This document shows, piece by piece, positions 1-15,605 of a DNA stretch of 23,170 nucleotides. The translations under genes were made by a program, and so were the position numbers. Source of the DNA: a virus. Position 1 is the stretch's first letter; each line of letters begins with the position of its first letter. Location of the stretch: the IMG/VR virus record IMGVR_UViG_3300042402_005128, positions 1 through 23,170 of that record. One strand, 5' to 3'. The notes beneath the pieces were generated by a model. That model was given only the letters and a program-made list of their open reading frames with translations, did no database searches and had not been told where the DNA came from.

Positions 1-351
1 ACTAGACCTGACTCACAGAAACTAGCAAACGTAGAAGTCATTGATCAACCCATGACCAACATGGAATTATTTGCTATTTTAATTAACGCACAAAAGCGTG
101 TATTGATTGATTCTTCTCTACAACATGCTGCAGCAGCATTCAACCTCCCGTCTACAGTATTTTGGATTGGTACTTCACCGAAAGTATTTGGATATAAGCT
201 ACATAACAACATTGTAGCCAAGCCACCTAAAGGCGGTACTAAGCTAATCGATGCCTACCTCTTTGATTATAACTTAGATGGAGTATTACACGAATGTCCT
301 TACATTAATGTAAATGAGATGTTTGATCAGAGCGTTATTAACAAAATTTAA
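1..351 (+). CDS. C-terminal part of a GT9 (heptosyltransferase)-like glycosyltransferase, cut by window start
   Basis: The reading frame is open from base 1, so the ATGs at 52 and 61 are probably internal and this is the last 116 residues of a longer gene. The segment around codons 25-55 of the visible part (RVLIDSSLQHAAAAFNLPS followed by TVFWIGTSPKVFGY) resembles the nucleotide-sugar-binding half of GT-B enzymes of the GT9/ADP-heptose transferase type. There a conserved 'D-S-G/S...H-A-A-A-x-x-x-P-T/S' stretch is followed by a strand and a Gly-Thr/Pro loop. The stop codon shares one base with the ATG of the next gene (TAATG), so the two are probably translationally coupled. The neighbours are sugar-modifying enzymes, which supports the call. 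The acceptor and donor cannot be told from this fragment. Confidence 0.6.
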   Translation, partial: TRPDSQKLANVEVIDQPMTNMELFAILINAQKRVLIDSSLQHAAAAFNLPSTVFWIGTSPKVFGYKLHNNIVAKPPKGGTKLIDAYLFDYNLDGVLHECPYINVNEMFDQSVINKI

Positions 352-1766
352 TGGAAGGATATTTCGATTTTATTGAAATAGGTTCAGCTGACTTTGAAAC
401 GTTGATAGAGAGTGCTACCGACGAAACAAGAGGTATTACCCTTGAACCGTTAAAGCAGTACTTTGACAGGCTTCCAGATAAGAAGAACGTAATTAAGGTT
501 CAAGCTGCTCTCTCTGATAAAGACGGAACAGACCTTATCTACTATGTAGATGAAACTAAGATTCAAGAACATAAACTTCCGGAATGGACAAGTGGAAGTA
601 ATAGCCTAGGTCAACCACATCCGTTTTTGACTTTATTTTACGGGGAAGAGTTTTATAAAAGTCTAGTAGAGACGGTAGAGGTTGAAACTATAACATTCGA
701 TACTTTAGTTTCTACTTATAACGTACAGGGAATTGGTTATCTCAAGATAGATACTGAAGGACATGATCACGTAGTCTTAAAAGGATATTTGGACGTATGT
801 AAAAAAAATCCTAAATTATTAGCGCAGACAGTCGTATGCGAGTACGATAAACTTGTTTCAAACGTAGAGGAGATGGATAAAGTACTTAAGGAATTTGAGA
901 AGTACTACTACGTTGTAAAAGGAAAGAATGATTGTTTTATGACAACTAAACAAACGATATTTTATCAATCCTCTCTTCCAAGAGCAGGATCTACTTTATT
1001 ACAAAACCTTGTAGGTCAAAATCCAGCATTTCACGTTACACCAACATCAGGTATGATTGATTTGATGCTTGGAGCAAGAATCGGGTATAACGAGAATAAA
1101 GAAGCTAAAGCAGGCGATAAAGATTTGTGGCGTGAAGGGTTTTATGCTTTCTGTAAAGCAGGATTAAATGCTTATGTAGCTAATCTCACTAACAGACCTT
1201 ACGTACTAGATAAAAATAGAAACTGGGCTGCTTCCTATCCGTTACTGACTAAGATGTTTGATAGACCTAAGATCCTTTTCATGGTAAGGGATTTGAGATG
1301 TGTATTTGCTTCGATGGAGAAGAAATTTAGAGCAAATCCTGATATCGAAGACGGTACTGTAGATAATATGAATTTGACTGGACTTACTACTCAAGCTAGG
1401 GTAGAAAAATGGTCTATGGGTCATCCGATCGGTCATGCATTACCTAAACTCTATCAATCTTTTCTGGATAAGACAGCCGATAATTTTCTATTCATCAGAT
1501 ATGAAGATCTCTGCACTAATCCAGAAACGCAGTTAAAACGTATCTACGCCTATCTCGAAGTACCCTACTTTCAACACGATTACAACTACATACCTCAAAT
1601 AACAGTTGAAGATGATACCGTACACGGCATTTACGGCGATCACACAATCAGAAATACACTCGGTATGCTACCTGACGATTCACGTGAAATCCTAGGGGAC
1701 TTTACCTGCGAGTGGATCTACAGCAATTACAAATGGTTTTTTGACATATTTCAATATAAAAAATGA
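351..1766 (+). CDS. FkbM-type methyltransferase fused to a PAPS-dependent sulfotransferase
   Basis: Two enzymes are fused in 471 residues. Residues ~4-195 are an FkbM-family SAM methyltransferase: a SAM-loop-like start (DFIEIGSADF, 6-15) and the family motif YLKIDTEGHD (130-139). Such enzymes usually O-methylate sugars. Residues ~203-471 are a sulfotransferase. The 5'-phosphosulfate-binding loop is SLPRAGSTLLQNLV (208-221), the 3'-phosphate region is VRDLRCVFASM (312-322), and the C-terminal helix motif RYEDLCTNPETQLKRI (383-398) is typical of the family. The protein should transfer sulfate from PAPS to a hydroxyl, probably on a glycan, and methylate the same or a related glycan. Its stop overlaps the next start by 4 bases (ATGA). 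The next gene resembles an APS kinase, the enzyme that makes PAPS. The methyltransferase half is paralogous to the first domain of the gene at 8605. Confidence 0.88.
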   Translation: MEGYFDFIEIGSADFETLIESATDETRGITLEPLKQYFDRLPDKKNVIKVQAALSDKDGTDLIYYVDETKIQEHKLPEWTSGSNSLGQPHPFLTLFYGEEFYKSLVETVEVETITFDTLVSTYNVQGIGYLKIDTEGHDHVVLKGYLDVCKKNPKLLAQTVVCEYDKLVSNVEEMDKVLKEFEKYYYVVKGKNDCFMTTKQTIFYQSSLPRAGSTLLQNLVGQNPAFHVTPTSGMIDLMLGARIGYNENKEAKAGDKDLWREGFYAFCKAGLNAYVANLTNRPYVLDKNRNWAASYPLLTKMFDRPKILFMVRDLRCVFASMEKKFRANPDIEDGTVDNMNLTGLTTQARVEKWSMGHPIGHALPKLYQSFLDKTADNFLFIRYEDLCTNPETQLKRIYAYLEVPYFQHDYNYIPQITVEDDTVHGIYGDHTIRNTLGMLPDDSREILGDFTCEWIYSNYKWFFDIFQYKK

Positions 1767-2215
1767 TTATAGTATTATTTGGACAGCCCCATTGCGGCAA
1801 AACAACTCTAGCCCGTAAACTAGCCAACGAACAGTGCTGGAACATTGACGGAGACGATTTAAGAACTCTTTTCAAGAACAAGAACTATACCCGCGAAGGA
1901 CGTCTACAGAATTTAAACCGGGCTAGTGATATAGCCCACTACATGGAGAGCCTAGGTACCGATATCGTTCTCTCCCTTATTTACCCTTACAGAGATGCAC
2001 GTAATTACCTTAATAGTCTCAATGATAACGTAAAGTGGATACACTTGACATACGAGGGAGAAAGGGGTAGAGAAGAGTACCACGTAAAAGATTTTGAATA
2101 TCCAGTAGGAGAGCGTATATTACATTTAGATACCTCTAAGTTATCAATTACAGAATGTATTAGTGCAATAAAAACTTACACCAATGAAGAACTACCTAGC
2201 GAAAGCACAGAGTAA
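1763..2215 (+). CDS. cysC: APS kinase-like (adenylylsulfate kinase) P-loop protein
   Basis: At 150 residues this is shorter than a typical CysC (about 200) but keeps the family's landmarks in order: P-loop GQPHCGKTT (7-15), IDGDDLR (28-34, the CysC 'DGDxxR' substrate motif), RLQNLNR (47-53, cf. 'R..N..R') and IYPYRDAR (73-80, cf. 'SPYRxxR'). APS kinase phosphorylates adenosine 5'-phosphosulfate to PAPS, the donor used by the sulfotransferase just upstream. The 4-base ATGA overlap with that gene favours co-translation and a shared pathway. The C-terminus is shortened and the lid region is not obvious, so another small-molecule kinase is possible. The context makes APS kinase the best reading. 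The gene symbol is by family resemblance only. Confidence 0.75.
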   Translation: MIIVLFGQPHCGKTTLARKLANEQCWNIDGDDLRTLFKNKNYTREGRLQNLNRASDIAHYMESLGTDIVLSLIYPYRDARNYLNSLNDNVKWIHLTYEGERGREEYHVKDFEYPVGERILHLDTSKLSITECISAIKTYTNEELPSESTE

Positions 2216-2570
2216 ATCTGGCAAGTATGCAATGTTTATTGGAAGATGGCAACCCTGGCATTCTGGGCATAGATGGCTTATTGATCAAGCCCTAAAGGAG
2301 GGTAAAAACGTACTACTCTGTATTCGAGATGTAGAACCAGACGAAAAAAATCCATGGACTGCCCAAGAAGTCCTTATGAACCTCTCTAGCGAATTAAAAG
2401 ATCTTGTAGAGGCAGGAAAATTACATATTATAAAAATTCCCGATATTGAATCTATCAATATTGGACGAGGAGTTGGGTATGATATTATAGAACATACACC
2501 ACCTCAAGATATTCACGATATTTCTGCCACCAAAATTCGTGAACAAATGAAAGCCGAAGGCAAGTTATGA
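2184..2570 (+). CDS. HUP-superfamily nucleotidyltransferase (NMNAT/cytidylyltransferase-like; possible APS-forming enzyme)
   Basis: A 128-residue adenylyl/cytidylyltransferase fold. FIGRWQPWHSGHRWL (18-32) holds the HxGH nucleotide-binding motif (26-29), and ISATKIREQ (113-121) is the matching C-terminal 'IS(A/G)TxIR' motif. The start at 2184 overlaps the previous gene by 32 bases. An ATG at 2232 would avoid the overlap but would cut the first beta strand just before the GRWQPWH loop, so I prefer 2184. NMN adenylyltransferases and many unassigned transferases share these motifs. ATP sulfurylase belongs to the same superfamily, so forming APS for the upstream kinase is an attractive inference. 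However, the protein is much smaller than a normal ATP sulfurylase and lacks an evident QxRNP motif. The stop overlaps the next start by 4 bases (ATGA). Confidence 0.72.
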   Translation: MKNYLAKAQSKSGKYAMFIGRWQPWHSGHRWLIDQALKEGKNVLLCIRDVEPDEKNPWTAQEVLMNLSSELKDLVEAGKLHIIKIPDIESINIGRGVGYDIIEHTPPQDIHDISATKIREQMKAEGKL

Positions 2571-2779
2571 TAGTAGAAAGAAAACGACATATAGCCAAAA
2601 CTATTAGCTATCGAATCGTTAGTACTTTAATTGGATTCTTACTTATGTGGCTAATTTCCGGGTCTATAAAGATAGGGGTAGCATTCGGTGTAGCCGAACT
2701 CGTTTACAAGCCAATTCAATACTATATCCACGAGCGTATTTGGTATCGCTGGATAAAATACGGACTCAAGAAAAGCTAA
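2567..2779 (+). CDS. DUF2061 family small membrane protein
   Basis: A 70-residue protein with the recognisable DUF2061 layout. It has a basic N-terminus (VERKRHIAKTISYRIVSTL), a first hydrophobic helix (about 19-34), a short turn, a second hydrophobic helix (about 36-47) and a C-terminal YYIHERIWYRW segment (52-62) that is characteristic of the family. It should sit in the host inner membrane. The biochemical role of DUF2061 is not established. My recollection is that the domain is often found with sulfate-assimilation genes, which fits its place at the end of the cluster of sulfotransferase, APS-kinase-like and nucleotidyltransferase genes. It overlaps the previous gene by 4 bases and is followed by the first true intergenic gap, so it closes this operon. 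Confidence 0.8.
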   Translation: MIVERKRHIAKTISYRIVSTLIGFLLMWLISGSIKIGVAFGVAELVYKPIQYYIHERIWYRWIKYGLKKS

Positions 2780-2788
2780 TTTCAGATC

Positions 2789-2796
2789 TATTTATA
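2789..2796 (+). promoter_or_regulatory. putative phage late promoter motif TATTTATA
   Basis: TATTTATA lies 61 bases before the fibre ATG. It is one of about ten copies of TATTTAT-like boxes in the intergenic gaps of this window. The 15 bases AGAAAAGCTAATTTC at 2769-2783 directly upstream recur before the motif at 18390. Confidence 0.55.
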
Positions 2797-2800
2797 TTAG

Positions 2801-2835
2801 TCCTCATATAGGATTAGATTACCGGGTATATACCC
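2801..2835 (+). promoter_or_regulatory. two short hairpins in the fibre mRNA leader
   Basis: Between the late-type motif and the fibre ATG the leader can form two small stems. The first is TCCT (2801-2804) with AGGA (2810-2813). The second is the palindrome GGGTATATACCC (2824-2835). Neither is followed by a T run, so they are not terminators. They may protect the 5' end or set translation of the very large fibre mRNA. No other leader in the window has such structures. Confidence 0.35.
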
Positions 2836-2857
2836 ACTTCGAAGGTAAAACATAGAT

Positions 2858-5800
2858 ATGTCTGTAAGAATTGAACTGAAACGCAGTAGCGTTCCCGGAA
2901 AAGTACCTGATACCCAAGATCTCCTTCTTGGGGAAGTAGCCATAAACACCTATGACGGAAAGGCTTACATCAAAAAAGATGTAAACGGAGTTCAAACTAT
3001 TGTCGAACTAGGGTCTGCAGGAGCACCAGGAACATCTGGTACATCGGGGACTAGCGGTACATCAGGCACATCAGGGGCTGCTGGCTCGTCAGGTACAGCA
3101 GGAACAAGCGGAACCTCGGGAGTTTCTGCAGAATACATCGGATTCTCTACCTCCTCACTTACTATACCTTCAGGATCAGGGCAACCCTATACAATCTATA
3201 CTCAAACTAATCTAGCCTATACAATTGCCCAAACCCTACTTATTGCTTACGATGTAAGTAACAATTTTGAGGCTAGTGTTACAAGCTACAACGCAGGTAC
3301 CGGGATTCTAGACGTCATATCTAATGGAACTTTCGTAGGATCAGGTACATACAGTAACTGGACTATCAACCTAGCAGGTGCATCAGGGGGTGATGGTACA
3401 TCCGGAACTAGCGGCACTAGCGGAACAAGCGGTACATCAGCAACCTCCGGCACGTCTGGTACGAGCGGAACAAGCGGGACTAGCGGAACTAGTGCAACAA
3501 GCGGAACATCCGGTACCAGCGGAACGCCTGGAACTAGCGGTATAAACGGAACATCTGGTACTTCAGGAACAACCGGTACCTCTGGTACGACCGGAACCAG
3601 CGGAACAAGTGGTACTAGTGCAACTAGCGGTACTTCGGGTACTAGTGGCGTGAACGGTACAAGCGGAACATCTGGCACTACTGGAACTAGTGGTACAACA
3701 GGCACATCAGGTACATCAGGTACTTCGGGGACTAGTGCAACTAGCGGTACCTCCGGTACATCAGGAGTAAACGGAACTTCAGGTACTAGCGGTACTACAG
3801 GCACCAGCGGAACATCTGGTACTACCGGTACTAGTGGAACATCAGGAATAAACGGCACTAGCGGAACTTCAGGAACAAGCGGTACATCGGGTATAGACGG
3901 AACTAGCGGCACTAGCGGAACAAGCGGTACGTCAGGGACTAGCGGAACTACGGGAACTAGTGGCACTAGCGGTACATCGGCAACTAGCGGAACATCTGGT
4001 ACAGCAGGTACGACAGGAACGTCGGGGACTAGCGGAACTACCGGTACTAGCGGGACTAGCGGAACGTCAGGGACTAGCGGAACTACGGGAACTAGCGGAA
4101 CTACCGGTACTAGCGGGACTAGCGGAACGTCAGGGACTAGCGGAACTACGGGAACTAGCGGAACTACCGGTACTAGCGGGACTACTGGTACATCCGGTAC
4201 AAGCGGTACATCTGGTACAAGAGGAACATCAGGAACAACTGGTACCTCTGGTACATCAGGAACGAGCGGGACTGGATTTAATACTATAAATAATCCAGGT
4301 CAAGGTAGGGTATTGCTATCAGACGGTTCAACAAACGCAGCTACTGCATCAGTCGTAGCTACAGTAGTAGGAAGTACTTTTAGTATTTCAGGCAGTGCAG
4401 CACTGACCGGATCTGCTGTCTTTTCTTATATAGTACCTTCAGTTTGGGTAGCAGGCGGTGCTATGATTACTGCTAGATCCTGCTTAGGAGGCGCTGGAAC
4501 ACCTAGTGCCGCTCTTGCTTTTGGAGGAAATGTTAGCAGTCCAATAATTGGCCCTTTCTGTACGTGCACCGAAGCGTATAACGGAACAACCTGGGCAACG
4601 GGTGGATCTTTGATCAACGGTACTGCGTTTTTGTCATCAGCAGGTACGCAAAATGCTGCGCTAGCTGCTGGAGGTGGATTTCCCGGAACTACCTGTACTG
4701 AAGCATACAACGGACTTACATGGTCGGCAGGCGGAGCTATGAATGTAGGTAGAGCACGGATGGGATCGGCAGGTATACAAAATTCAGCTATAGTATTTGG
4801 AGGATACACTCCTGCAAACAATCCAACAAGGTGTACCGAAACCTATAACGGTTCAGCATGGGCAGTAGGAGGTAATTTAATAACGGAGAGAAACTGTTTA
4901 GCAGGAGCTGGAGCTTCAAATACTGCTGCCCTAGCATTTGGAGGTTATAATGCAGCTATTGTAATCGTTAGTTGTGTAGAAGCGTATAACGGTGCTTCTT
5001 GGTCAACAAGAACTGCAATGATAACTGCAAGACAAGGGCTAGCAGGAGCAGGTATACAAAATTCAGCACTTGGCTTTGGTGGAAACACATCGTTTCCATC
5101 GATTGTCTGTGTTGCTTGCACTGAAGAATACAACGGTACCTCTTGGACCACAAGAGCTGCCTTGAATACTGCTAGAGTTCTTTTAGCAGGATGTGGAGCA
5201 TCTAATGCTGCAGCAGTAGGATTTGGAGGATTGGCACCCAGTAATGTAAGCTGTACCGAAGCATACACGGGACCTACAGTAACCCCCACCTACAATTACT
5301 CAAACGCTGATGGAAGCAGTCAAGTAACCGGTAGTTTTCTAGTAACAGGTTCTGTTTATTTGAGAGGCCTTCAATATACCACGTCTGTAACAAGTAGTGT
5401 ATTGATAGATACAGCAACTGGATTACTTTATTTTACATCAGGAAGCGTAGGCGGAGGTAGCGGTACTTCCGGCACATCAGGCACCAGTGGAACATCGGGT
5501 ACAAGCGGTACTAGTGCAACAAGCGGCACCTCTGGAACTAGCGGTATTAGTGGAACTTCAGGGACTAGCGGTACATCGGGGTTAAACGGAACTTCAGGAA
5601 CATCAGGTACTAGCGGAACTAGCGGTACTACAGGAACATCGGGCACTAGCGGTACTACAGGAACATCAGGTACTAGCGGAATTAACGGTGCAAACGGAAC
5701 ATCAGGTACATCCGGTACTAGTGGAGCAAATGGCTCTAGCGGAACTAGTGGAACTAGCGGTACATCAGGGGTAAATGGCGCTGACGGTAGTAGCGGAACG

Positions 5801-7771
5801 TCAGGAACTAGCGGTACTACAGGCACCAGCGGTACATCTGGAACCTCCGGTACTCGAGGAACATCAGGTACTAGCGGAACAAGCGGAACGTCAGGTTTCA
5901 GCGGTAATGATGGATCAAACTCGGGTAGATGGGTATTTGATACCAGTTCACTAGCATTTAGTGATCCAGGAAGTACATACTTTAACACTGATGCTACAAA
6001 CGTTAGTGCTATTACAAAAATATCAATAAGCGATACTAACGCTAACTCGATAAATTACCAAGCTTGGTTAGAAGGATTAGTTACACTCAGGACTACTCAG
6101 ACCGGTTATATTCAAGTGACAGAAGTCGGAAGTACGAGTGTTATAGGAATATGGCCAATAAGCAGTGCAACTGATCAAGCAGGTTATATAGACGTTAGCT
6201 TAGGTACCTCACTCGCTACTAACGGTATTTTAATAGATAACCGTACCTATACAATATCCTGGGTATTTAATGGAGCCAATGGAACTAGCGGTACGTCTGG
6301 TACTAGCGGTACATCAGGGACAAGTGGTACAACAGGTACCTCCGGTACTAGTGGATTAAACGGAGCCAATGGAACTAGCGGTACATCTGGTACTAGCGGT
6401 ACATCAGTAGCTGTATCAGGTACAACTAACTACGTTACTAAATTTACATCAGCTACTACAATTGGAAATACAGGAGTCCCAATATACGATGATGGAACTA
6501 ATGTAGGTATAGGTACAATATCTCCAGTAGATAAATTAACAGTTAACGGTAATTTATTTTTAACAGGAAGTAGCCGCAGTGTATGGATAGGAAATAATGC
6601 TGATTCTGGACCTAGATTTAGAATGCATCATAATGGAACTAATGCTTATCTTGATTACTCTTCTAGTTTATATATTAGAAATGGTGCTTTTAGTTCAACA
6701 ACCACTTTCGATCCTATTGGTAGGGTTGGTATAAATACTACGAACCCATTACATAGATTAGACGTAAGCGGTGATGCTCGAATTACTGGAAATTTGGGTG
6801 TTAATGGGGTATTTGCTACATTTCCTTTATATGTTAGAACTGCAACAAATCAAAGATTTAGAGTTGTAGATGGGGGTGGCGGTTATACTCAATTATCCTC
6901 ATTAGATGATGCGGAAGCATTTTTTACCCCAATAATGTTAGGTGATTCTTGGGTAAATATAAATGCCTCAGGAAGTGTCGGTATAAATACGTTATCTCCA
7001 TCAGCAAGACTTCATGTAGCAGGTACTACCTACCTCTCCGCGTCTCTTAATAACACACCATTAACATCATTTTCAGGAAATAATACTGCAGGGGTTTATT
7101 CTACTCAACTTGCATTCGTTAACGATACTACATATTATGGCGCTTACTTAAGTACGAAACGAGATAATTCTAGTGTAAACGGGGTACAACTGACTCTTAC
7201 AACTGCTGACGGATCGGCTGATTTCTTTTTTGAAACACCTGATTACGCAACTCCGCAGTTAAGATTTTCGGCCGGTGGAGCTAGTAGTTATGCTAATCTA
7301 GCATTTAGTAACAATACCGGTAGTGGACTCTATTCTGATGGATTTGGACCAAACAATAGCCCTCAAAGTATTTATTTTGCTTTCGATAACACAAATAAAT
7401 TTCAATTCTCAGGAAGTGGATTATTTAGAGCAGCCGACGACGTAATAGCTTTTTATTCTTTCTCGGATAGAGAACTCAAGAAAAATATCTTACCAATCTG
7501 CGGTAGTCTAGCGCTTGAAAAAGTACAGCAGCTACAGGGAGTATATTATAGGTGGAAAGATGATGGAGGTAGTAGGGCCGGTAACGAGGAGATAGGATTT
7601 ATTGCTCAAGATGTAGAAAGCGTTATACCACAGCTTGTACGAGAGTACGAACGTCTTGGACAGGAAGGAAAATATAAATCCGTCGATTACGCTCACATTA
7701 CAGCCCTTCTTGTAGAAGCAATAAAGGAACAACAGAAGCAGATTGATGAACTAAAAGCTAAAATAGGGTAA
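2858..7771 (+). CDS. giant tail fibre with Gly-Thr-Ser collagen-like tracts, kelch-like repeats and S74 chaperone domain
   Basis: A 1637-residue fibre. Residues 1-52 (RIELKRSSVPGKVPDTQDLLLGEVAINTYDGKAYIKK region) match the N-terminal attachment domain common to phage fibres. Collagen-like Gly-X-Y tracts, mostly GTS, occupy about 54-88, 178-471, 867-1021 and 1138-1184. Small beta-rich domains lie at about 89-176 and 1022-1137. Six kelch-like repeats of about 46 residues fill about 527-805. From about 1190 come shaft modules containing 'GTNVGIGT..P..KLTVNG' and 'RVGINTTNPLHRLDVSG'. The last 100 residues (SDRELKKNI at about 1537, then IGFIAQDVE and VDYAHITALLVEAIKE) are a peptidase S74/endosialidase chaperone domain, which normally trimerises the fibre and then cuts itself off. 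The protein should be a trimeric receptor-binding fibre. No Shine-Dalgarno sequence is visible; the leader is A-rich. Confidence 0.93.
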   Translation: MSVRIELKRSSVPGKVPDTQDLLLGEVAINTYDGKAYIKKDVNGVQTIVELGSAGAPGTSGTSGTSGTSGTSGAAGSSGTAGTSGTSGVSAEYIGFSTSSLTIPSGSGQPYTIYTQTNLAYTIAQTLLIAYDVSNNFEASVTSYNAGTGILDVISNGTFVGSGTYSNWTINLAGASGGDGTSGTSGTSGTSGTSATSGTSGTSGTSGTSGTSATSGTSGTSGTPGTSGINGTSGTSGTTGTSGTTGTSGTSGTSATSGTSGTSGVNGTSGTSGTTGTSGTTGTSGTSGTSGTSATSGTSGTSGVNGTSGTSGTTGTSGTSGTTGTSGTSGINGTSGTSGTSGTSGIDGTSGTSGTSGTSGTSGTTGTSGTSGTSATSGTSGTAGTTGTSGTSGTTGTSGTSGTSGTSGTTGTSGTTGTSGTSGTSGTSGTTGTSGTTGTSGTTGTSGTSGTSGTRGTSGTTGTSGTSGTSGTGFNTINNPGQGRVLLSDGSTNAATASVVATVVGSTFSISGSAALTGSAVFSYIVPSVWVAGGAMITARSCLGGAGTPSAALAFGGNVSSPIIGPFCTCTEAYNGTTWATGGSLINGTAFLSSAGTQNAALAAGGGFPGTTCTEAYNGLTWSAGGAMNVGRARMGSAGIQNSAIVFGGYTPANNPTRCTETYNGSAWAVGGNLITERNCLAGAGASNTAALAFGGYNAAIVIVSCVEAYNGASWSTRTAMITARQGLAGAGIQNSALGFGGNTSFPSIVCVACTEEYNGTSWTTRAALNTARVLLAGCGASNAAAVGFGGLAPSNVSCTEAYTGPTVTPTYNYSNADGSSQVTGSFLVTGSVYLRGLQYTTSVTSSVLIDTATGLLYFTSGSVGGGSGTSGTSGTSGTSGTSGTSATSGTSGTSGISGTSGTSGTSGLNGTSGTSGTSGTSGTTGTSGTSGTTGTSGTSGINGANGTSGTSGTSGANGSSGTSGTSGTSGVNGADGSSGTSGTSGTTGTSGTSGTSGTRGTSGTSGTSGTSGFSGNDGSNSGRWVFDTSSLAFSDPGSTYFNTDATNVSAITKISISDTNANSINYQAWLEGLVTLRTTQTGYIQVTEVGSTSVIGIWPISSATDQAGYIDVSLGTSLATNGILIDNRTYTISWVFNGANGTSGTSGTSGTSGTSGTTGTSGTSGLNGANGTSGTSGTSGTSVAVSGTTNYVTKFTSATTIGNTGVPIYDDGTNVGIGTISPVDKLTVNGNLFLTGSSRSVWIGNNADSGPRFRMHHNGTNAYLDYSSSLYIRNGAFSSTTTFDPIGRVGINTTNPLHRLDVSGDARITGNLGVNGVFATFPLYVRTATNQRFRVVDGGGGYTQLSSLDDAEAFFTPIMLGDSWVNINASGSVGINTLSPSARLHVAGTTYLSASLNNTPLTSFSGNNTAGVYSTQLAFVNDTTYYGAYLSTKRDNSSVNGVQLTLTTADGSADFFFETPDYATPQLRFSAGGASSYANLAFSNNTGSGLYSDGFGPNNSPQSIYFAFDNTNKFQFSGSGLFRAADDVIAFYSFSDRELKKNILPICGSLALEKVQQLQGVYYRWKDDGGSRAGNEEIGFIAQDVESVIPQLVREYERLGQEGKYKSVDYAHITALLVEAIKEQQKQIDELKAKIG
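3390..4275 (+). repeat. longest Gly-Thr-Ser coding repeat tract
   Basis: About 98 Gly-X-Y triplets in one reading frame, mostly GTS with interruptions of the types GAT, GIN, GVN, GID and GTT. Codons are varied: Gly is GGA, GGT, GGC or GGG; Thr is ACT, ACA, ACC or ACG; Ser is AGC, AGT, TCA, TCT, TCC or TCG. Most of the tract is therefore degenerate at the DNA level. Shorter tracts of the same kind lie at about 3017-3121, 5455-5920 and 6270-6408. Confidence 0.95.
4028..4183 (+). repeat. perfect 63-bp tandem duplication inside the GTS tract
   Basis: A 63-base unit of seven 9-base codon triplets is present twice without a mismatch (4034-4096 and 4097-4159). It starts a third time for 24 bases (4160-4183) before diverging. 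The unit encodes 21 residues of GTT/GTS triplets. This is a recent in-frame expansion, unlike the codon-scrambled tract around it. Confidence 0.93.
4438..5275 (+). repeat. six kelch-like repeats in the fibre gene
   Basis: Six degenerate units of about 140 bases encode repeats of the form W-x-x-G-G-x-(M/L)-x-x-x-R ... A-G-x-x-x-x-A-x-x-F-G-G ... C-(T/V)-E-x-Y-N-G. A cysteine directly before the (T/V)-E-x-Y motif is kept in all six. The pattern matches kelch/galactose-oxidase-type blades, so a six-bladed propeller is likely. Confidence 0.75.
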
Positions 7772-7772
7772 A

Positions 7773-8306
7773 ATGGCACTTCCATCATCTGGTCAAATAT
7801 CAATACTAGACATCGTCAATGAAGGGACTAGCGGAGGATGTTATGTTGCTGAATTAGGAGGATATTCACTAGGATCACTTGCTACTGCTTTTGAAATAGC
7901 AGGTAATCCAGACGCAATGAGCGAGTTTTACGGACTAAGCTGCCCCCCAGGATGTTATTATGTTGATGGAGATTACTATTTTGCTGTAAGAAATATGTCA
8001 TCTAGAACAGGCCGAAACAGGGGTAGAGTAAAAACTATAAACGGATCATACGAAGTATACACTAAACCATCAGCAACTGATACAAACTTTAGTAATTACA
8101 CGCAAGTAACACGTAGTGTTAATACAGACCCTCTAACTATATACGACGTCCCGTATACAATGACAAGAGGTGAGTGGGTAACTTCTGTTAATGTTACCGT
8201 AGACGGAGGGTGCCCGTTCTTTACTTTTCCAACTCCCTCACAAACAGGATCATACGGGGCTAATTTTTATATATCCGCTGTTACACCTTTTCTCCCTCTC
8301 CCTTAA
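7773..8306 (+). CDS. small phage structural protein, probably fibre-associated
   Basis: A 177-residue protein starting one base after the fibre stop codon, so the two are co-translated. Its N-terminus, MALPSSGQISILDIVNE followed later by MSEFYGLS (residues 49-56), is a pattern seen at the start of many phage tail and appendage proteins (MALPSSGxISxxDI... then a short 'FYG'-type strand). The rest is rich in Tyr, Thr and Gly with predicted beta character, including DGDYYFAVRNMSSRTGRNRG, and has four cysteines. No enzyme motif is visible. A role as a fibre tip, collar or second adhesin riding on the fibre is inferred from position and N-terminal pattern only. Confidence 0.65.
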   Translation: MALPSSGQISILDIVNEGTSGGCYVAELGGYSLGSLATAFEIAGNPDAMSEFYGLSCPPGCYYVDGDYYFAVRNMSSRTGRNRGRVKTINGSYEVYTKPSATDTNFSNYTQVTRSVNTDPLTIYDVPYTMTRGEWVTSVNVTVDGGCPFFTFPTPSQTGSYGANFYISAVTPFLPLP

Positions 8307-8308
8307 TA

Positions 8309-8316
8309 TATTTATT
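8309..8316 (+). promoter_or_regulatory. putative late motif TATTTATT, split by the intron
   Basis: TATTTATT lies three bases after the stop codon of the 177-residue structural gene and 288 bases before the next ATG. The inferred 5' splice site of the group I intron falls inside it, after base 8315. Confidence 0.4.
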
Positions 8317-8535
8317 AGTGTCCCTGTAAAATTGGGTTAATTGCTGGAAAGCTAAGTCCATTTGAGATATGCCAATCAGCAGCCAAGCCTAGAGTACACT
8401 CTAGGAAGGTTCAGAGACTACTGGAGGAATAAAGTTTCCTTAATAACCAGCTAGAGCGCCCAACAGATGCAAATCTGATGATATAGTCCGATCTTTATGG
8501 AAACATAAAGCTAACATAAATGCGTGTTCGGCACG
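8316..8535 (+). ncRNA. group I intron (compact, no homing endonuclease)
   Basis: The classical R sequence GTTCAGAGACTA (8409-8420) and S sequence GATATAGTCC (8480-8489) are present, and all core stems can be built by eye. P1 is TTTAT 8311-8315 with GTAAA 8326-8330, ending in the required U.G pair. P3 is TTGGGT 8332-8337 with GCCCAA 8458-8463. P4 is TTGCTG 8341-8346 with CAGCAG 8377-8382. P6 is CCTAGAGT 8388-8395 with ACTCTAGG 8398-8405. P7 is GACTA 8416-8420 with TAGTC 8484-8488. P7.1/7.2 is CTGG 8421-8424 with CCAG 8447-8450 and AGGAA with TTCCT inside it. P8 is CAGAT 8464-8468 with ATCTG 8473-8477. P9 is CTTTATG-GAAA-CATAAAG (8493-8510). The extra stems at P7 suggest subgroup IA. The 5' splice site is after 8315; the 3' end near 8535 is a guess based on possible P10 pairing of TCCC with GGGA. 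No ORF lies inside. Confidence 0.88.
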
Positions 8536-8569
8536 GGATAAAAAGCATTTAGTAAGTTAACAAGATTTA

Positions 8570-8600
8570 TTTGACAGTAATGTTAACTTTCGTATATTAC
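8570..8600 (+). promoter_or_regulatory. host-like promoter TTTG-N19-TATATTAC before the glycosyltransferase operon
   Basis: TTTG at 8570-8573 and TATATTAC at 8593-8600 are exactly 19 bases apart, matching the Bacteroidota primary-sigma form TTTG-N19-TAnnTTTG in spacing and in most positions. The same bases also read as TTGACA-N16-TATATT. Transcription would start at or within a few bases of the ATG at 8605, giving an almost leaderless mRNA. Confidence 0.5.
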
Positions 8601-8604
8601 AGTT

Positions 8605-11600
8605 ATGAACGGTAGTTTCGATTTTATAGAAATAGGTACAGCGGATTTTGATACACTCATTGAAGAAGCCTCTAATACAGATAGAGGGCTCAGTATCGAA
8701 CCTCTTGGATTCTACTTAAACAAACTTCCAGACAAAGCTAATGTAATCAAATACCAAGCTGCAGTAACAGATACTGACGGCTTCATGGATATCTACTATA
8801 TAGAGGAAAGTAAGATAGTAGAATATAACCTACCCTGGTGGGTGAGAGGATCCAATAGCGTCGGCAAACCGCACCCATTCACTGTTCAGGAAATCGGAGA
8901 AGAATTATACAACAAACTTGTAACTATTGATAGGGTACCTACTGTATCCTGGAAAACATTAATTGAAAAATACCAAATCGAAAAAATTAAGTATCTAAAA
9001 ATAGATACAGAAGGCTACGATATTGTTATATTGAATGCATACTTAGATGAGTGTGAAAAAAATCCTAATTTATACGCCGATAAAATAAAGTTTGAATGTC
9101 ATAACGGAGTTTCTAATAGAGAAGAAGTCAATAAGTTACTTACCAGGTTTAAAGGATATAGCGTTCAGGTCAATGATATTGATGTCAATCTCGTAAAAGA
9201 AACTATCCCTAGAGTTATACACCAGACTTATAGAACAAAAGAACTTCCAGTTGAGCTTGCTTTTTCAGTTGAAAAACTGAAATTAATGAATCCTACTTTT
9301 GAATATAAGTTTTACGATGATCAAGACTGTATTAATTTTATTCGAGATAATTACGATCAAGATACTTTAGATTGTTATTTAGATATTAATCCAAAATACG
9401 GAGCAGCAAGAGCAGACTTTTTCAGGTACTTGTTGATGTATAAAGTAGGGGGTGTTTACCTTGATATAAAAAGCACTACAACTATTCCCTTAGAGCAAAC
9501 ATTGCTTGTAACTGACGAGTACATTTTAACACATTGGCCAGGAAAAGACTGGGCCGAAGAATTAGGGTATGAACATGGCGAGTTTCAAAACTGGCATATA
9601 ATTTGTAAACCAGGACATCCGTTCTTAAAGCAAACGATTGAGGATGTTAAAAACAACATAAAAAATTACGATGGAGTTGTAGGTAGAGAAGCAGTTTTGA
9701 AAATTACCGGTCCTATTGCTTATAGTAAAGCTATCCTCAGCTCTTTAGGTAAGTACAGAAGAAATAAATGGGACTCACCTGTAAGAGAGTATAAGTTAGA
9801 AGGAGAGGTAGGTCTTAAGTACATGAACATAAGAGTCGATCGTCATACGGCCTATCATAGTAAGTATCCAATGGATGAACCTCTTATTCTACCTAGAAAA
9901 AAACATAAAAAAGCGTACGTACTGTATGCTAACGAGAATTACTTTGAGACAGTTCAAGCTTGTGTAGATTCTATTAAAGCTTTCAGTCAAATTCCTATCT
10001 TTGTTTACCTGCTAAACTGCAGTAAGAAAATAGAGGGAGCAAGAACAATCAATTGGACATCTCAAATAGGTAAACTAGAAGATAATAACTATATTCAAGA
10101 AAGTGGTAATTTTTACATTGATAGATCTAAGCCTGACATTTATAAATTACTTATACAGCGTCCGCTTATAATCAAAGATGCACTCAAAAAGTATGCTGAG
10201 ACTGTCTGCTATGTAGATTCTGATTCAATAGCAACAGATAATGTAGATCGTATTTTCAGTTATTACGATTCTGAGAAATCATACCCGTACTTCGTAAAAG
10301 GAATATACGATTATCTACTTGTAGGAAGTAGAGGAGGTGCTAGTGATAGAGATAACTTACACACAACACTTGAGCATCCTGCTTGTGAATTATTTGGAGT
10401 AGATCAGCGAGTAAGACGAGGTTATAGACAGACAGGATATTTTGTTGCAGGTAAAAACACTATCGACTTCCTAGAAGAGTGGTATTGGATGTGTACTAAT
10501 CCAAAAGTTCTAAGTAATTCAACTTGGTATGCACCTTACCATGAAGAGACTATTGCTAATGTCTTGTTATGGAAATACGATATACATGATGGACTGCCTT
10601 ATATCTATGTAAACGGAAGTTTAGATAGGATACATAAGGTATACTCAGAATTAGAATTTACAGGAGTATCTAGAGAGATAGAGGAGTGGTTTAAAATCCC
10701 GGGACGTAAAGAAGATATTTTATTCTTTCACGGAGAGAAAAATCCGGATAAGATGTCAAGTATGGTGGACAGAATAAAAAACCGTGGAAAAAAGATTAAA
10801 AAATTAGTTTACATTGCCCCGCATCTCTCTACAGGAGGGCAGCCTCAATACCTACTTAAGCAAATACAAGAATTCAAAGATCAGTTTGATATTCACGTCA
10901 TAGAGTACAACTATAACTCAGCACATTTTATTGTCCAGCGAAGTCAGATAGAACAAATGCTCGGTACTCGATTCTTTAGTCTAGGTGATGACAAAGATAA
11001 CCTAATGCCTATCATCAACGAGATAAATCCCAATATCGTACATCTGCACGAGGTACCTGAATTTTTTATGAAAGAGGAGATTGCCGTAGACCTATTTAAC
11101 AACGCTACTAGGAACTACTTTATTGTGACAACAACGCACTCTTCTACAACTAATCCTTCCGCATTAAAATTTCATCCAGATAAATTTGTGTTAGTAAGCG
11201 AATGGTCTAGACAAAAATTTGAAAAAGAGCTCCCGGAAGTACCTACCGAGGTTTGGGAATATCCAATTCACGCCTATACCGGAGATAAGAAAGCCGCACA
11301 AAAACTACTAAATCTAGATCCGCAGTATAAGCACGTATTGAATGTAGGACTATTCACCCCAGGAAAAAATCAAGGAGAGATTTTTAAAATAGCACGTGAG
11401 CTAGAGAATGAAAAAATTAAGTTTCACTTTGTAGGTAATCAAGCAGGCAACTTTCAAGAGTATTGGGAACCGTTGATGAAGGATAAGCCTGATAATTGTA
11501 TAGTATGGGGCGAAAGACAAGATGTAGAAAATTTTTATCAAGCCTGCGATCTATTCTATTTTAGCTCGAAGTTTGAATTGAATCCTCTTTCTATTAAAGA

Positions 11601-11739
11601 AGCCTTGAGCTATAGAATGCCTTGTCTATTCAGAAGACTTGAAACCTACTTAGATAGCTACGATAATAATCCGCTAGTGAAATATATCGACGATGATCTA
11701 GAAAAAACTAAAGAGATACTGTTGCATGATCTACGATAA
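8605..11739 (+). CDS. four-domain FkbM methyltransferase / triple glycosyltransferase
   Basis: A 1044-residue polypeptide with four enzyme domains. Residues 1-195 are an FkbM methyltransferase (DFIEIGTADF at 6-15, YLKIDTEGYD at about 130-139) closely similar to the start of the gene at 351. Residues about 200-425 are a GT32/Och1-like transferase (IPRVIHQTYR, then ARADFFRYLLMYKVGGVYLDIKS ending near 290); the usual DxD reads D-I-K. Residues about 434-715 are a GT-A domain with GT8-like features (CYVDSDS, DSD at 538-540). Residues about 733-1044 are a GT-B domain of the GT4 type (PHLSTGGQPQYL near the start, FELNPLSIKEA at about 990-1000). Together these could build and methylate a short glycan. 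The end overlaps the next gene by 14 bases. The start lies just after a host-like promoter and has no Shine-Dalgarno sequence. Substrates cannot be read from sequence. Confidence 0.85.
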   Translation: MNGSFDFIEIGTADFDTLIEEASNTDRGLSIEPLGFYLNKLPDKANVIKYQAAVTDTDGFMDIYYIEESKIVEYNLPWWVRGSNSVGKPHPFTVQEIGEELYNKLVTIDRVPTVSWKTLIEKYQIEKIKYLKIDTEGYDIVILNAYLDECEKNPNLYADKIKFECHNGVSNREEVNKLLTRFKGYSVQVNDIDVNLVKETIPRVIHQTYRTKELPVELAFSVEKLKLMNPTFEYKFYDDQDCINFIRDNYDQDTLDCYLDINPKYGAARADFFRYLLMYKVGGVYLDIKSTTTIPLEQTLLVTDEYILTHWPGKDWAEELGYEHGEFQNWHIICKPGHPFLKQTIEDVKNNIKNYDGVVGREAVLKITGPIAYSKAILSSLGKYRRNKWDSPVREYKLEGEVGLKYMNIRVDRHTAYHSKYPMDEPLILPRKKHKKAYVLYANENYFETVQACVDSIKAFSQIPIFVYLLNCSKKIEGARTINWTSQIGKLEDNNYIQESGNFYIDRSKPDIYKLLIQRPLIIKDALKKYAETVCYVDSDSIATDNVDRIFSYYDSEKSYPYFVKGIYDYLLVGSRGGASDRDNLHTTLEHPACELFGVDQRVRRGYRQTGYFVAGKNTIDFLEEWYWMCTNPKVLSNSTWYAPYHEETIANVLLWKYDIHDGLPYIYVNGSLDRIHKVYSELEFTGVSREIEEWFKIPGRKEDILFFHGEKNPDKMSSMVDRIKNRGKKIKKLVYIAPHLSTGGQPQYLLKQIQEFKDQFDIHVIEYNYNSAHFIVQRSQIEQMLGTRFFSLGDDKDNLMPIINEINPNIVHLHEVPEFFMKEEIAVDLFNNATRNYFIVTTTHSSTTNPSALKFHPDKFVLVSEWSRQKFEKELPEVPTEVWEYPIHAYTGDKKAAQKLLNLDPQYKHVLNVGLFTPGKNQGEIFKIARELENEKIKFHFVGNQAGNFQEYWEPLMKDKPDNCIVWGERQDVENFYQACDLFYFSSKFELNPLSIKEALSYRMPCLFRRLETYLDSYDNNPLVKYIDDDLEKTKEILLHDLR

Positions 11740-12874
11740 TCTTATAAAGAACCTAGATAATATAAAGGCTAGCCTTGGGATATCGTTTGTAAACGGCCCT
11801 AAGGTAGAAGTAATATCGCCTGTTAAGGCCGAATATAAGGTAGAGTTCATTAATCCAATTACTGGACAGATCGTTCATACCAGTATTATCAAGAACAATC
11901 ATTGGACTAAATGCTTGTATGAATATTTTATACCCTGGTATATTAAGGTGTATCAAAATGAGAACGGTACTTTTGTATTTGCCGAAGACCATCACTTTAA
12001 TGCAGAAGGTAAGAGAGTCTATATTTCACTAGATTCAAAAGCACTAGGTGATACCCTGGCCTGGTTTCCGTACGTAGAAGAATTTAGGAAGGAGCATAAC
12101 TGTAAAGTTGTTTGCTCTACCTTCCATAATTATCTATTCAAGGATCAGTATCCAGAAATTGAGTTTATAAAGCCAGGAGAGGTAGCACACAATCTCTATG
12201 CGATGTATGTATTAGGTTGGCCATATAAAGAAGACGGAGAAGTCAATCTATATAGAACACCTAGTGATTTTAAAACTAAACCGCTGCAGCAGACAGCTAG
12301 TGATATTTTAGGAATTGAGTTTTCAGAAGTTAAACCAAAACTACCTATCTACGGTACAGAAAAGAAAAAACAAGTTTCAATAGCCATTCACGGAACCGCT
12401 CAAGCTAAGTATTGGAATAATCTAACGGGGTGGCAAGAAACAGTAGATTGGCTTATTGAAAGAGGTTACGAAGTTTATCTTCTATCTAAGGAAGGAGATA
12501 CGTACATGGGTAATAATCACCCTAAAGGAATTAAGTATCTAGATTCATATACGCTAGAGAATACAATCAAAGTATTACAAGAATCAGAAGCATTCATAGG
12601 AATTAGTAGTGGATTGAGTTGGGTATCGTGGGCTGCAGGCACACCAACAGTACTGATCTCGGGTTTTACTGAAGAATACACAGAACCTGAAAGCTGTTAC
12701 AGATTAGGTGCACCACAAGGTAAGTGCAGGGGCTGTTTCAATAGATCAAGACTCGATGCAGGAGATTGGAATTGGTGTCCAGATCATAAGAATACTGAAA
12801 GACAGTTTGAATGCTCTAAATCTATTAAATCTGAAGCAGTTATAGAGAAACTTAAGTTAATTTTAGGTAGATAG
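11726..12874 (+). CDS. TibC/BAHT-like protein O-heptosyltransferase (iron-finger GT-B)
   Basis: At 382 residues the protein follows the bacterial autotransporter heptosyltransferase (TibC, Aah) pattern along its whole length. The N-terminal beta domain (about 26-90) is followed by SLDSKALGDTLAWFPYVEEF (101-120), PLQQTASDILGI (186-197), the donor-site segment AIHGTAQAKYWN (220-231) and IGISSGLSWVSWAAGTP (291-307). The cysteines C334-x2-C337, C351 and C363 then correspond to the iron-finger of TibC. Family members attach ADP-activated heptose to Ser residues of strand-loop-strand repeats in secreted proteins. In a phage, the obvious Ser/Thr-rich candidate acceptor is the fibre at 2858, which is inference. 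The start overlaps the preceding glycosyltransferase gene by 14 bases. It is the last gene before a 129-base gap carrying late-type motifs. Confidence 0.88.
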   Translation: MIYDNLIKNLDNIKASLGISFVNGPKVEVISPVKAEYKVEFINPITGQIVHTSIIKNNHWTKCLYEYFIPWYIKVYQNENGTFVFAEDHHFNAEGKRVYISLDSKALGDTLAWFPYVEEFRKEHNCKVVCSTFHNYLFKDQYPEIEFIKPGEVAHNLYAMYVLGWPYKEDGEVNLYRTPSDFKTKPLQQTASDILGIEFSEVKPKLPIYGTEKKKQVSIAIHGTAQAKYWNNLTGWQETVDWLIERGYEVYLLSKEGDTYMGNNHPKGIKYLDSYTLENTIKVLQESEAFIGISSGLSWVSWAAGTPTVLISGFTEEYTEPESCYRLGAPQGKCRGCFNRSRLDAGDWNWCPDHKNTERQFECSKSIKSEAVIEKLKLILGR

Positions 12875-13481: not shown

Positions 13482-15605
13482 ATGGCAGAAGCATTAATTT
13501 CACCAGGCGTATTCCTAAGAGAAAACGACCTTTCCCAAATAACAGCAGGTCCCGTTACAGTAGGTGCAGCCCTAATCGGCCCCACTGTAATAGGAAAACC
13601 TAACGTTCCCACCCTCGTAACTTCTTACTCTCAGTATAAGGCTAAATTCGGAACTACTTTTATTTCCGGAGGCAATACCCACGAGTACTTAACTTCACAA
13701 GCTGCTTACAATTACTTCCAACAAGGAGGTACTTCTCTTCTTGTAACGAGAGTAGCTAGTGGATCTTATACTGCAGCTACTGCAGATGTGGTTAGTAATG
13801 CAGGAACGAAAGCAACGCTCGTTACTTCTAGCTTCCCTATCGACGTTCCAGGTCCAGGTACCGGATTCCAACTTACCGGATCATCAGTTGGATTCTTTTT
13901 TGTAACAGCTAGTACTTATGTTGTTGCTGATGCCCCTCCTCTTTATTACGTATCCTCTGGATCTACTCAAACTACTACAGCTACTGCTATTGCCAATAAG
14001 ATCAATTCCTTGATCTCTACATTCAGCATTTCAGCTTCTGCTGCTGCAGGCGTACTTCAACTAACTGCAAGCTCTGTCGGAATCGCAGGTAATAGCTATT
14101 CATACGTTACTCAATCTATCACGTCTACCTTCTCAGGAGGTACAGAGCAAACTGCTTCTTTCGTTCTTGAAACATTATCAGTTGGTGAGATAATGAATAA
14201 TAACTTCTCAGCTTCTGCTAATATTAACAGAAATGGTATTCTACCTTCTGGATCTGCAAACAACGTAAGATGGCAGGTTACTCAAGCTGATTCCGCTTCA
14301 GGCGTATTTACCGTTATTGTAAGAAGAGGTGATGATTACACAGCAAACCAAACTGTACTTGAAACTTGGACAAATCTTTCTTTAGATCCAAACCAAAATA
14401 ACTACATCGCCTACGTAATTGGTGATCAGACTCAAACACTTGCTTACGATAGCGATGGTCAAGCATATTTAGAGGTTACAGGTAGCTACCCTAACGCTTC
14501 AAACTACATTCGAGTTAAGACCGTTAATCAACCTACTCCAAACTATCTAAACCCACAAGGTCAAGCTTATTCTCAATACACTGCTTCAATTCCATTGAAC
14601 GGAAGCGGTTCTTATAACGGTTCATTTAGCGGTGCAACAGGACCTTTATTTGGATGCTCTGTAGGTACATCATTAGCTAGAGTGAATTTATTCGAGAATA
14701 TCCCTACCATTACCTCTACAGGAGGAACTCCTTCTACTAACATTCAAGGTGTATTCCCCGATAACTATACTGCCACACTAAACTTACTATCAAATCAAGA
14801 TCAGTACGTTTATGATTCAATCTATGCCCCCGGCATAACTAATCAAAACGCTAGTTCAGTAATCGGCGAACTTCTCGCTATGGTTCAGAACCGTGGAGAT
14901 GCTATTGCAGTAGTGGATATGGTTGGATACAATCAAGCTATCAACTCTGTAACATCGGCCGCTCAATCTTACGATAACAGCTACGGTGCTACTTACTGGC
15001 CATGGGTTCAAGTTCGTTCAATCGAAACTGGACGTCTACACTTTGTACCTGCTTCGGTAATTATCCCTGGAGTATACGAATACAATGATAGAGTATCAGC
15101 TGAGTGGTTTGCACCAGCCGGTCTTAATCGCGGAGGTCTTCCAACCGTAATCCAGCCTGAAAAGCGCCTTACTGTAGGTCAGCGTAATATCTTATATACT
15201 GCTAAAGTTAACCCAATTGCAGTATTCCCAGGACAGGGAACGGTAGTATACGGACAGAAGACTTTACAAGCTCGTGCTTCTGCACTAGATAGAGTAAACG
15301 TTCGCCGTCTGTTGATCGCTCTTAAGAGCTATATCGGTCAAATTGCCCAGACCCTGGTATTCGAGCAGAATACAGCCGTTACACGTAATCGTTTCCTTGC
15401 TCAAGTTAATCCATATCTTGATTACGTACAACAGCGTCAAGGTCTATATGCTTTCCGCGTAGTAATGGACGAGACCAATAATACACCGGATGTAATCGAT
15501 CGTAATCTTCTTGTAGGTGCCATTTACTTACAGCCAACTAGAACTGCTGAATTCATTCAACTTGATTTCAACATTCTACCAACCGGTGTAACCTTTGGTG
15601 CATAA
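13482..15605 (+). CDS. contractile tail sheath protein
   Basis: At 707 residues the protein is close to T4 gp18 in length. The N-terminus (SPGVFLRENDLSQITAGPVT, then GAALIGPTVIGKPNVPTLVTS) is the standard sheath start. The C-terminal part (ASALDRVNVRRLLIALKSYIG, RNRFLAQVNPYLDYVQQR, LVGAIYLQPTRTAEFIQLDF) is the conserved sheath core that packs on the tube and forms the handshake with neighbouring subunits. Between them, residues about 126-222 form an inserted module with the pattern TATAIANKINS ... LTASSVGIAGNSY. Similar modules occur in Mu/P2-type sheaths, and a close copy exists in the gene at 16760. The protein polymerises around the tail tube and contracts at infection. It is preceded by a late-type motif and no Shine-Dalgarno sequence. 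Confidence 0.95.
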   Translation: MAEALISPGVFLRENDLSQITAGPVTVGAALIGPTVIGKPNVPTLVTSYSQYKAKFGTTFISGGNTHEYLTSQAAYNYFQQGGTSLLVTRVASGSYTAATADVVSNAGTKATLVTSSFPIDVPGPGTGFQLTGSSVGFFFVTASTYVVADAPPLYYVSSGSTQTTTATAIANKINSLISTFSISASAAAGVLQLTASSVGIAGNSYSYVTQSITSTFSGGTEQTASFVLETLSVGEIMNNNFSASANINRNGILPSGSANNVRWQVTQADSASGVFTVIVRRGDDYTANQTVLETWTNLSLDPNQNNYIAYVIGDQTQTLAYDSDGQAYLEVTGSYPNASNYIRVKTVNQPTPNYLNPQGQAYSQYTASIPLNGSGSYNGSFSGATGPLFGCSVGTSLARVNLFENIPTITSTGGTPSTNIQGVFPDNYTATLNLLSNQDQYVYDSIYAPGITNQNASSVIGELLAMVQNRGDAIAVVDMVGYNQAINSVTSAAQSYDNSYGATYWPWVQVRSIETGRLHFVPASVIIPGVYEYNDRVSAEWFAPAGLNRGGLPTVIQPEKRLTVGQRNILYTAKVNPIAVFPGQGTVVYGQKTLQARASALDRVNVRRLLIALKSYIGQIAQTLVFEQNTAVTRNRFLAQVNPYLDYVQQRQGLYAFRVVMDETNNTPDVIDRNLLVGAIYLQPTRTAEFIQLDFNILPTGVTFGA

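Follow-up and report, generated by a model that had tools for sequence, protein, structure and literature searches.

Enzymes of the BAHT family (TIGR04414), exemplified by TibC of enterotoxigenic Escherichia coli and by Aah, are protein O-glycosyltransferases that classically act as dodecamers, transfer heptose from ADP-heptose to Ser and have a beta-helical autotransporter as partner. Collagen-like proteins can also carry glycans: BclA of the Bacillus exosporium is O-glycosylated, with its Gly-X-Thr triplets presumed to be the O-glycan carriers, and some mycobacteriophages are known to glycosylate their virions. Here we describe a locus with features of all three, found at positions 1-12,874 of a 23,170-nucleotide stretch of viral DNA (IMG/VR record IMGVR_UViG_3300042402_005128, positions 1 to 23,170; the whole stretch is referred to below as the window), in which a collagen-like tail fibre carrying blocks of Gly-Thr-Ser (GTS) triplets is flanked by genes for sugar-modifying enzymes, the last of them of TibC/Aah type. 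As in BclA, triplets would be the O-glycan carriers, although the enzymes and sugars of BclA are different ones and BclA is no phage tail fibre; as in the mycobacteriophages, a phage-encoded glycosyltransferase would act on a virion protein, with other transferases and other targets. From sequence comparisons, we consider it probable that the locus encodes a virion-glycosylation system in which the TibC-type enzyme glycosylates the GTS fibre and the enzyme encoded just upstream extends and methylates the glycan, with a nearby sulfation cassette forming a separate module. A literature search, confined to open-licence papers, returned no paper on phage TibC, on phage GTS repeats or on the combined pathway.

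The last gene of the locus (11,726-12,874, + strand, 382 amino acids) encodes a predicted TibC/Aah-fold protein O-glycosyltransferase with intact catalytic residues. The protein matches TIGR04414 with 270.9 bits over residues 18-377 (curated cut-off 200) and the sequence of the TibC structure 4RAP at 2.8e-50 (phmmer, PDB sequences). When its AlphaFold2 model (predicted local distance difference test score, pLDDT, 83.9) was searched with Foldseek, ranks 1-21 were occupied by TibC chains of 4RAP and 4RB4, followed by glycosyltransferase family 9 (GT9) and WaaC structures, with an E value of 2.2e-30 and a template modelling (TM) score of about 0.74 against 4RAP. Residue roles in TibC, including those of the catalytic Asp110 and the adenine-contacting Arg286, have been assigned by Yao et al. 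2014 (PMC4358343). The catalytic Asp110 and the sugar-site Thr226, Lys230 and Trp305 correspond to D109, T224, K228 and W299 in the window, and all four cysteines of the iron finger are kept (C334, C337, C351 and C363); the catalytic Asp/Lys/Trp and the four Cys are conserved in 73-74 of 74 phage-clade rows of the alignment. The position associated with heptose stereoselectivity is Ser, as in Aah, and the Phe265/Val266 pair of the TibC beta-hairpin thumb is represented by Tyr260/Met261, hydrophobic but different residues.

The adenine-contacting Arg286 is T280 in the window and Val, Thr, Ile or Leu in most phage relatives, with Arg found in 7 of the 74 phage rows versus 36 of 36 classic rows. 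Because of this replacement we refer to a variant clade and not to a canonical BAHT, and the sugar nucleotide used by the window enzyme may differ from ADP-heptose. The phage enzymes, that of the window included, also fall outside the well-supported clade formed by the 36 classic enzymes in a tree whose labels include loci picked by their repeats, and fusions to GT4 and other transferases are common among them. Whereas the classic enzymes partner autotransporters, no autotransporter substrate is encoded in the window, where the TibC-type gene is accompanied by the GTS fibre instead. A TibC homologue in another viral locus (L431, 9421-11,721) is without all four iron-finger Cys, keeps the catalytic Asp and adjoins a Ser/Thr-rich fibre of 360 triplets.

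The fibre itself (2858-7771, + strand, 1637 amino acids) matches phage tail-fibre PHROGs, has Gly-X-Y repeats that score 218.5 bits against the collagen family (PF01391) and ends in an S74 intramolecular chaperone (PF13884, 58.1 bits). We counted 172 Gly-X-Y triplets, 114 of them exactly GTS, in agreement with the figure of about 170 GTS-type triplets given in a preliminary description of this DNA. They form four main blocks, all on the + strand, of 12 triplets (3011-3121), 88 triplets (3377-4270), 49 triplets (5441-5914) and 14 triplets (6272-6400). The longest uninterrupted run is 44 triplets, compared with a maximum of 6 across 500 shuffles. At the DNA level GTS is spelled in 39 distinct ways, and of the 353 codon differences that separate neighbouring triplets 242 are synonymous; the amino-acid pattern has thus been maintained and is no product of fresh slippage.

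The preliminary description had proposed looking for co-occurrence of such enzymes and fibres across phage genomes. To do so, we ran two pattern scans of IMG/VR, one for Ser/Thr-rich and one for Pro/Gln-rich Gly-X-Y repeats, in which sampling was blind to TibC, and from both lists kept the contigs with stronger repeats, most of them 20 kb or longer. TIGR04414 was detected in 19 of 39 Ser/Thr-rich contigs versus 1 of 36 of the Pro/Gln type (Fisher p = 3.6e-6), and the difference held among contigs of 40-100 kb (8/18 versus 1/26, p = 0.0017). The repeat gene lay within 10 kb of TibC in 12 of the 19 TibC-positive contigs; in contigs of 299, 249 and 548 kb, TibC stood 2.9, 1.3 and 5.0 kb, respectively, from the sole strong repeat cluster (combined p = 0.006), and in three loci (L004, L426 and L427) the two genes were neighbours, 25-36 nucleotides apart. 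Conversely, 35 TibC contigs were initially identified through similarity, and 19 of them have collagen repeats above the Pfam cut-off; in the contigs examined the repeats were mostly GSS/GTS, some of them in open reading frames (ORFs) of 3000-4700 amino acids; one TibC lineage has mixed GTS/GNQ/GPQ repeats. The same pair of TibC and GTS/GSS repeat gene is held by a cultured virus, Microcystis phage Mel-JY01.

Several further observations were made on these repeat proteins. The repeat ORF of Mel-JY01 (L084, PP395634.1, 2-3049) encodes at least 1016 amino acids, with 75 GTS and 56 GSS triplets, at the very start of the record and is omitted from the deposited annotation, which instead places ORFs on the minus strand and one short ORF on the plus strand in this region. 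At 4750-8430 this phage encodes a 1226-residue protein in which GT4 and TibC domains are combined. Two TibC-carrying T4-like contigs (L432 and L436) have a Gly-X-Y gene not far upstream of TibC that is almost devoid of Ser/Thr (TS 0.03-0.05), and the Gly-X-Y proteins predicted in phage contigs G003, G005 and G049, rich in Ser/Thr and 4500-5300 residues long, are among the largest ORFs seen here.

The pairing extends to bacteria. Bacterial genomes were scanned with the phage TibC alignment, loci being found by TibC similarity alone, and the nearest matches comprised some phage-like contigs of metagenome-assembled genomes together with 16 chromosomal-looking loci. At 10 of the 16, the DNA within 1 kb of TibC encodes a small protein, either secreted or a lipoprotein, that has tandem GTS/GSS triplets; no such repeat accompanied any of 59 more distant loci, canonical autotransporter-paired enzymes included, in 907 kb (p about 1e-8), and GTS/GSS neighbours were found for none of 36 enzymes of the classic clade. 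The TibC neighbour in Methylomicrobium, a GTS protein of 233 amino acids, carries (GTS)17, and in Methylobacter the TibC-GTS pair has mfd on one side and csiV/miaB-type genes on the other. Because the bacterial carriers and the phage fibres share nothing obvious but their triplets, the GTS/GSS triplets are the likely substrate. As a separate observation, in rumen and gut Selenomonadales/Acidaminococcaceae two TibC-like genes, each of a different clade, stand in tandem; pairs of this kind were seen in L464, L466, L467, L468, L470, L473, L476, L492 and L494.

These bacterial neighbourhoods, the two-sample contig test and the proximity of the genes in giant contigs constitute the least biased support for the reading given above, and since the pairing of enzyme and repeat recurs in many unrelated phages as well as in bacterial chromosomes, glycosylation by the virus of its own fibres is probable. 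They also bear on the alternative that the enzymes act on polysaccharide or lipopolysaccharide at the host surface, leading to receptor masking or serotype conversion, in a tail region that just gathers host-interaction genes. Enzymes that modify O-antigen are known from phages, and GT9, GT4, FkbM and sulfotransferase proteins also build capsules; the TibC family, however, acts on proteins, tracks Ser/Thr-rich repeats and not collagen-like fibres generally, and is paired with GTS proteins in chromosomes that are not of phage origin, which makes a polysaccharide target very unlikely.

Which sugar would be transferred is suggested by neighbouring genes in other viruses. Of 80 viral TibC loci, 42 encode an HldE-like nucleotidyltransferase, which in 41 of them lies within 400 nucleotides downstream of TibC, and 38 also encode an HldE-like kinase. 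These genes resemble enzymes of nucleoside diphosphate (NDP)-heptose synthesis in placing a nucleotidyltransferase and a PfkB-type kinase beside TibC and in their HxxH and GAGD motifs; they differ in having diverged, in missing the Arg that the promiscuous STTR5 motif contains and in falling short of equivalog cut-offs (the best match of the nucleotidyltransferase is to TIGR02199, at 90-103 bits against a cut-off of 181.5), and no such gene lies on the window fragment. The tight link is limited to the local order TibC-nucleotidyltransferase-kinase of one lineage. HldE-like genes elsewhere in phage genomes have no specificity for TibC carriers, and we rejected them as a general marker of GTS phages because TIGR02199-like genes occur in control contigs too. 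The nucleotidyltransferase of the window was likewise rejected as an HldE relative, as it groups with nicotinamide mononucleotide (NMN) adenylyltransferases. NDP-heptose biosynthetic enzymes have been reported in viruses by Tang 2024, as described in passages of PMC11461863 and PMC11573728 that call the role of these enzymes in viruses unresolved; the TibC-HldE loci suggest protein heptosylation as that role.

A number of points weigh against fibre glycosylation by the TibC-type enzyme or against the sugar proposed. The replacement of Arg286 in the window bears on ADP-heptose as the donor, and the window, a 23 kb fragment, is without a heptose-synthesis gene of its own. TibC went undetected in about half of the GTS-repeat contigs, though many of these are fragments; the control contigs were unmatched for host and habitat, and there is some redundancy among the viral contigs, which are fragmentary. 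In the TibC lineage seen most often, moreover, the repeat proteins are encoded at other places in the genome, and the immediate neighbour of the enzyme is another large fibre, of 2.3-2.5 k residues. It is this arrangement that would be expected if TibC acted on another virion protein, such as the adjacent non-collagen fibre, with GTS fibres co-travelling in large aquatic phages. The genomes of this lineage nevertheless mostly carry GSS/GTS giants, and the bacterial pairs have no phage fibre, just short secreted GTS proteins or lipoproteins, so that we regard another virion target as quite unlikely. Glycosylation of the GTS fibre, the central claim of the preliminary description, is supported by the viral co-occurrence and the bacterial pairs, while the pathway around it stands in part, sulfation being the step that lost support.

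Extension and methylation of the glycan would fall to the four-part enzyme encoded directly upstream of the TibC-type gene (8605-11,739, + strand, 1044 amino acids), which consists of FkbM (residues 1-200), GT32-like (201-430), GT8-like (431-725) and GT4 (726-1044) parts. The FkbM, GT32 and GT4 assignments made previously are borne out by Pfam matches above cut-off (PF05050, PF04488 and PF00534), although the GT32 motif reads DIK instead of DxD. The GT8-like part has no Pfam or PDB sequence match and was assigned from a DxD-like YVDSDS motif, found again in those of its nearest relatives that have the motif, and from synteny; confirmation of a GT8 fold was dropped because the structure model was too poor (pLDDT 50). 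In one viral locus (L425), FkbM, GT32, GT8, GT4 and TibC form a single ORF, collinear with the two overlapping genes of the window, 1.7 kb from a gene for a 1672-residue Gly-X-Y protein, and TibC has a GT4 domain fused to it or standing directly 5' of it in the majority of viral loci. The collinear fusion makes it plausible, short of a demonstration, that a single glycan started by TibC is elongated, and also methylated by FkbM, as had been proposed. The FkbM domain of this gene (8605-9200) and that of a second FkbM gene (351-950) are duplicates at the DNA level, with patches 73-87% identical.

That second FkbM domain belongs to a cassette on the other side of the fibre, which lies between it and the glycosyltransferases. 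The cassette comprises an FkbM methyltransferase-sulfotransferase fusion (351-1766, 471 amino acids; PF05050 55.9 bits, PF13469 68.9 bits, both above cut-off), a protein resembling adenosine 5'-phosphosulfate (APS) kinases (1763-2215, 150 amino acids), a minimal nucleotidyltransferase (2184-2570, 128 amino acids) and a small DUF2061 membrane protein (2567-2779; PF09834 60.8 bits), all encoded on the + strand. The APS-kinase-like protein has P-loop, DGD and SLIYPYR motifs, APS kinases as its nearest solved structures and a PF01583 score of 39.6 bits (cut-off 21.1), without reaching NCBIfam equivalog cut-offs. The nucleotidyltransferase (PF01467, 30 bits, above cut-off; WHSGH and SATKIR motifs), which is joined to a kinase in phrog_10255, is possibly the adenylyl-transfer step in synthesis of 3'-phosphoadenosine 5'-phosphosulfate (PAPS); an ATP sulfurylase domain is not supported (PF01747 13.4 bits, cut-off 24.3), and as the best specific matches are NMN adenylyltransferases, PAPS synthesis by the pair is put forward only as a proposal.

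The preliminary description joined these genes to the others in one pathway, in which phage-made PAPS would serve to sulfate the very fibre glycan that the other enzymes extend and methylate. The genes do lie tightly packed on one strand around the fibre, and FkbM domains, in two copies related at the DNA level, are fused to both the sulfotransferase and the glycosyltransferases. Among 80 loci of tail-sheath relatives, however, the APS-kinase/nucleotidyltransferase pair occurs in 16, the sulfotransferase in 14 and DUF2061 in 12, and neither TibC nor Ser/Thr-rich Gly-X-Y repeats were found in the cassette-bearing loci; contigs of the cassette group of up to 74 kb have no collagen repeat, and sulfotransferases were detected in 1 of the 39 GTS contigs versus none of the 36 controls. 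One 9.7 kb contig (L005) holds cassette and TibC together with no fibre between them. Because the cassette stands beside the tail sheath in close relatives that have neither TibC nor GTS fibres, we assign it to the tail-sheath locus of this lineage, as an apparently separate, resident module. Sulfation as part of a single fibre pathway is weakened by these relatives and by the scarcity of sulfotransferases; it is not supported, the occurrence of these enzymes in phages that have no Thr/Ser-rich fibre being an outcome that the preliminary description had itself named as refuting, and we consider the full pathway unlikely.

All genes of 1-12,874 are on the + strand, most of them overlapping or nearly touching, and the coordinates and gene order given earlier proved right, as did, by Pfam and NCBIfam, the identification of FkbM with sulfotransferase, APS-kinase-like protein, nucleotidyltransferase, FkbM with GT32 and GT4, and TibC; three features had been overlooked, namely the DUF2061 gene, a group I intron and the S74 chaperone in which the fibre ends. 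The first gene, a C-terminal fragment of 116 amino acids cut by the contig start (1-351, + strand), had been called GT9-like, for which we obtained weak matches to RfaC/heptosyltransferase I, none above threshold (E = 8e-4 and 0.02); several related loci have a homologue of it 5' of the sulfotransferase. Immediately 3' of the fibre gene, a small ORF of no assigned family (7773-8306, + strand, 177 amino acids) has its 3' end overlapped by the group I intron match (8241-8510, + strand; RF00028, 101.2 bits, gathering threshold 50), and a short open frame stands 3' of the intron. The intron may interrupt the gene of this ORF; the host exons are not definable from its one viral relative, which covers the N-terminal 57 residues only. 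Beyond the TibC-type gene come tail sheath, tube and hub genes. The sheath (13,482-15,605, + strand; PHROG tail sheath, 2.4e-71), a lineage marker outside the proposed pathway, is 47% identical to that of Flavobacterium phage immuto, which with Microcystis phage Mel-JY01 is the closest isolate. The window is the tail module of a T4-like phage, with uncultured hosts, probably of Bacteroidota type.

In the mechanism that we propose, the TibC-type enzyme would O-glycosylate many Ser/Thr residues of the GTS blocks in the infected cell, most likely with heptose donated by an NDP-heptose, before the fibre assembles. The GT32, GT8 and GT4 domains of the upstream enzyme would then extend the sugar so added and its FkbM domain would methylate it. 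The glycan probably stabilises the proline-poor Gly-X-Y rod in place of proline/hydroxyproline, or shields it from proteases, or tunes adhesion. More tentatively, and with the odds somewhat against it, there may be a widespread glyco-collagen system of large phages and some bacteria, in which a variant TibC clade, altered in its nucleotide pocket and in many cases fused to elongating transferases, glycosylates Gly-Thr/Ser-Ser triplets, many phages make the NDP-heptose themselves and the fibres fold only when glycosylated; the viral NDP-heptose enzymes would then gain a function and the sugar would fill the stabilising role of proline/hydroxyproline. The gene order of TibC and HldE proposes a testable role for these viral enzymes, and with the bacterial TibC-GTS pairs activity could be tested on substrates that are small and simple. 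If fibre glycosylation by TibC-type enzymes is true, hundreds of environmental phages would use an enzyme borrowed from adhesin glycosylation to place sugars on their own fibres, with consequences for fibre stabilisation, for receptor recognition and for the way virions appear to antibodies and proteases.

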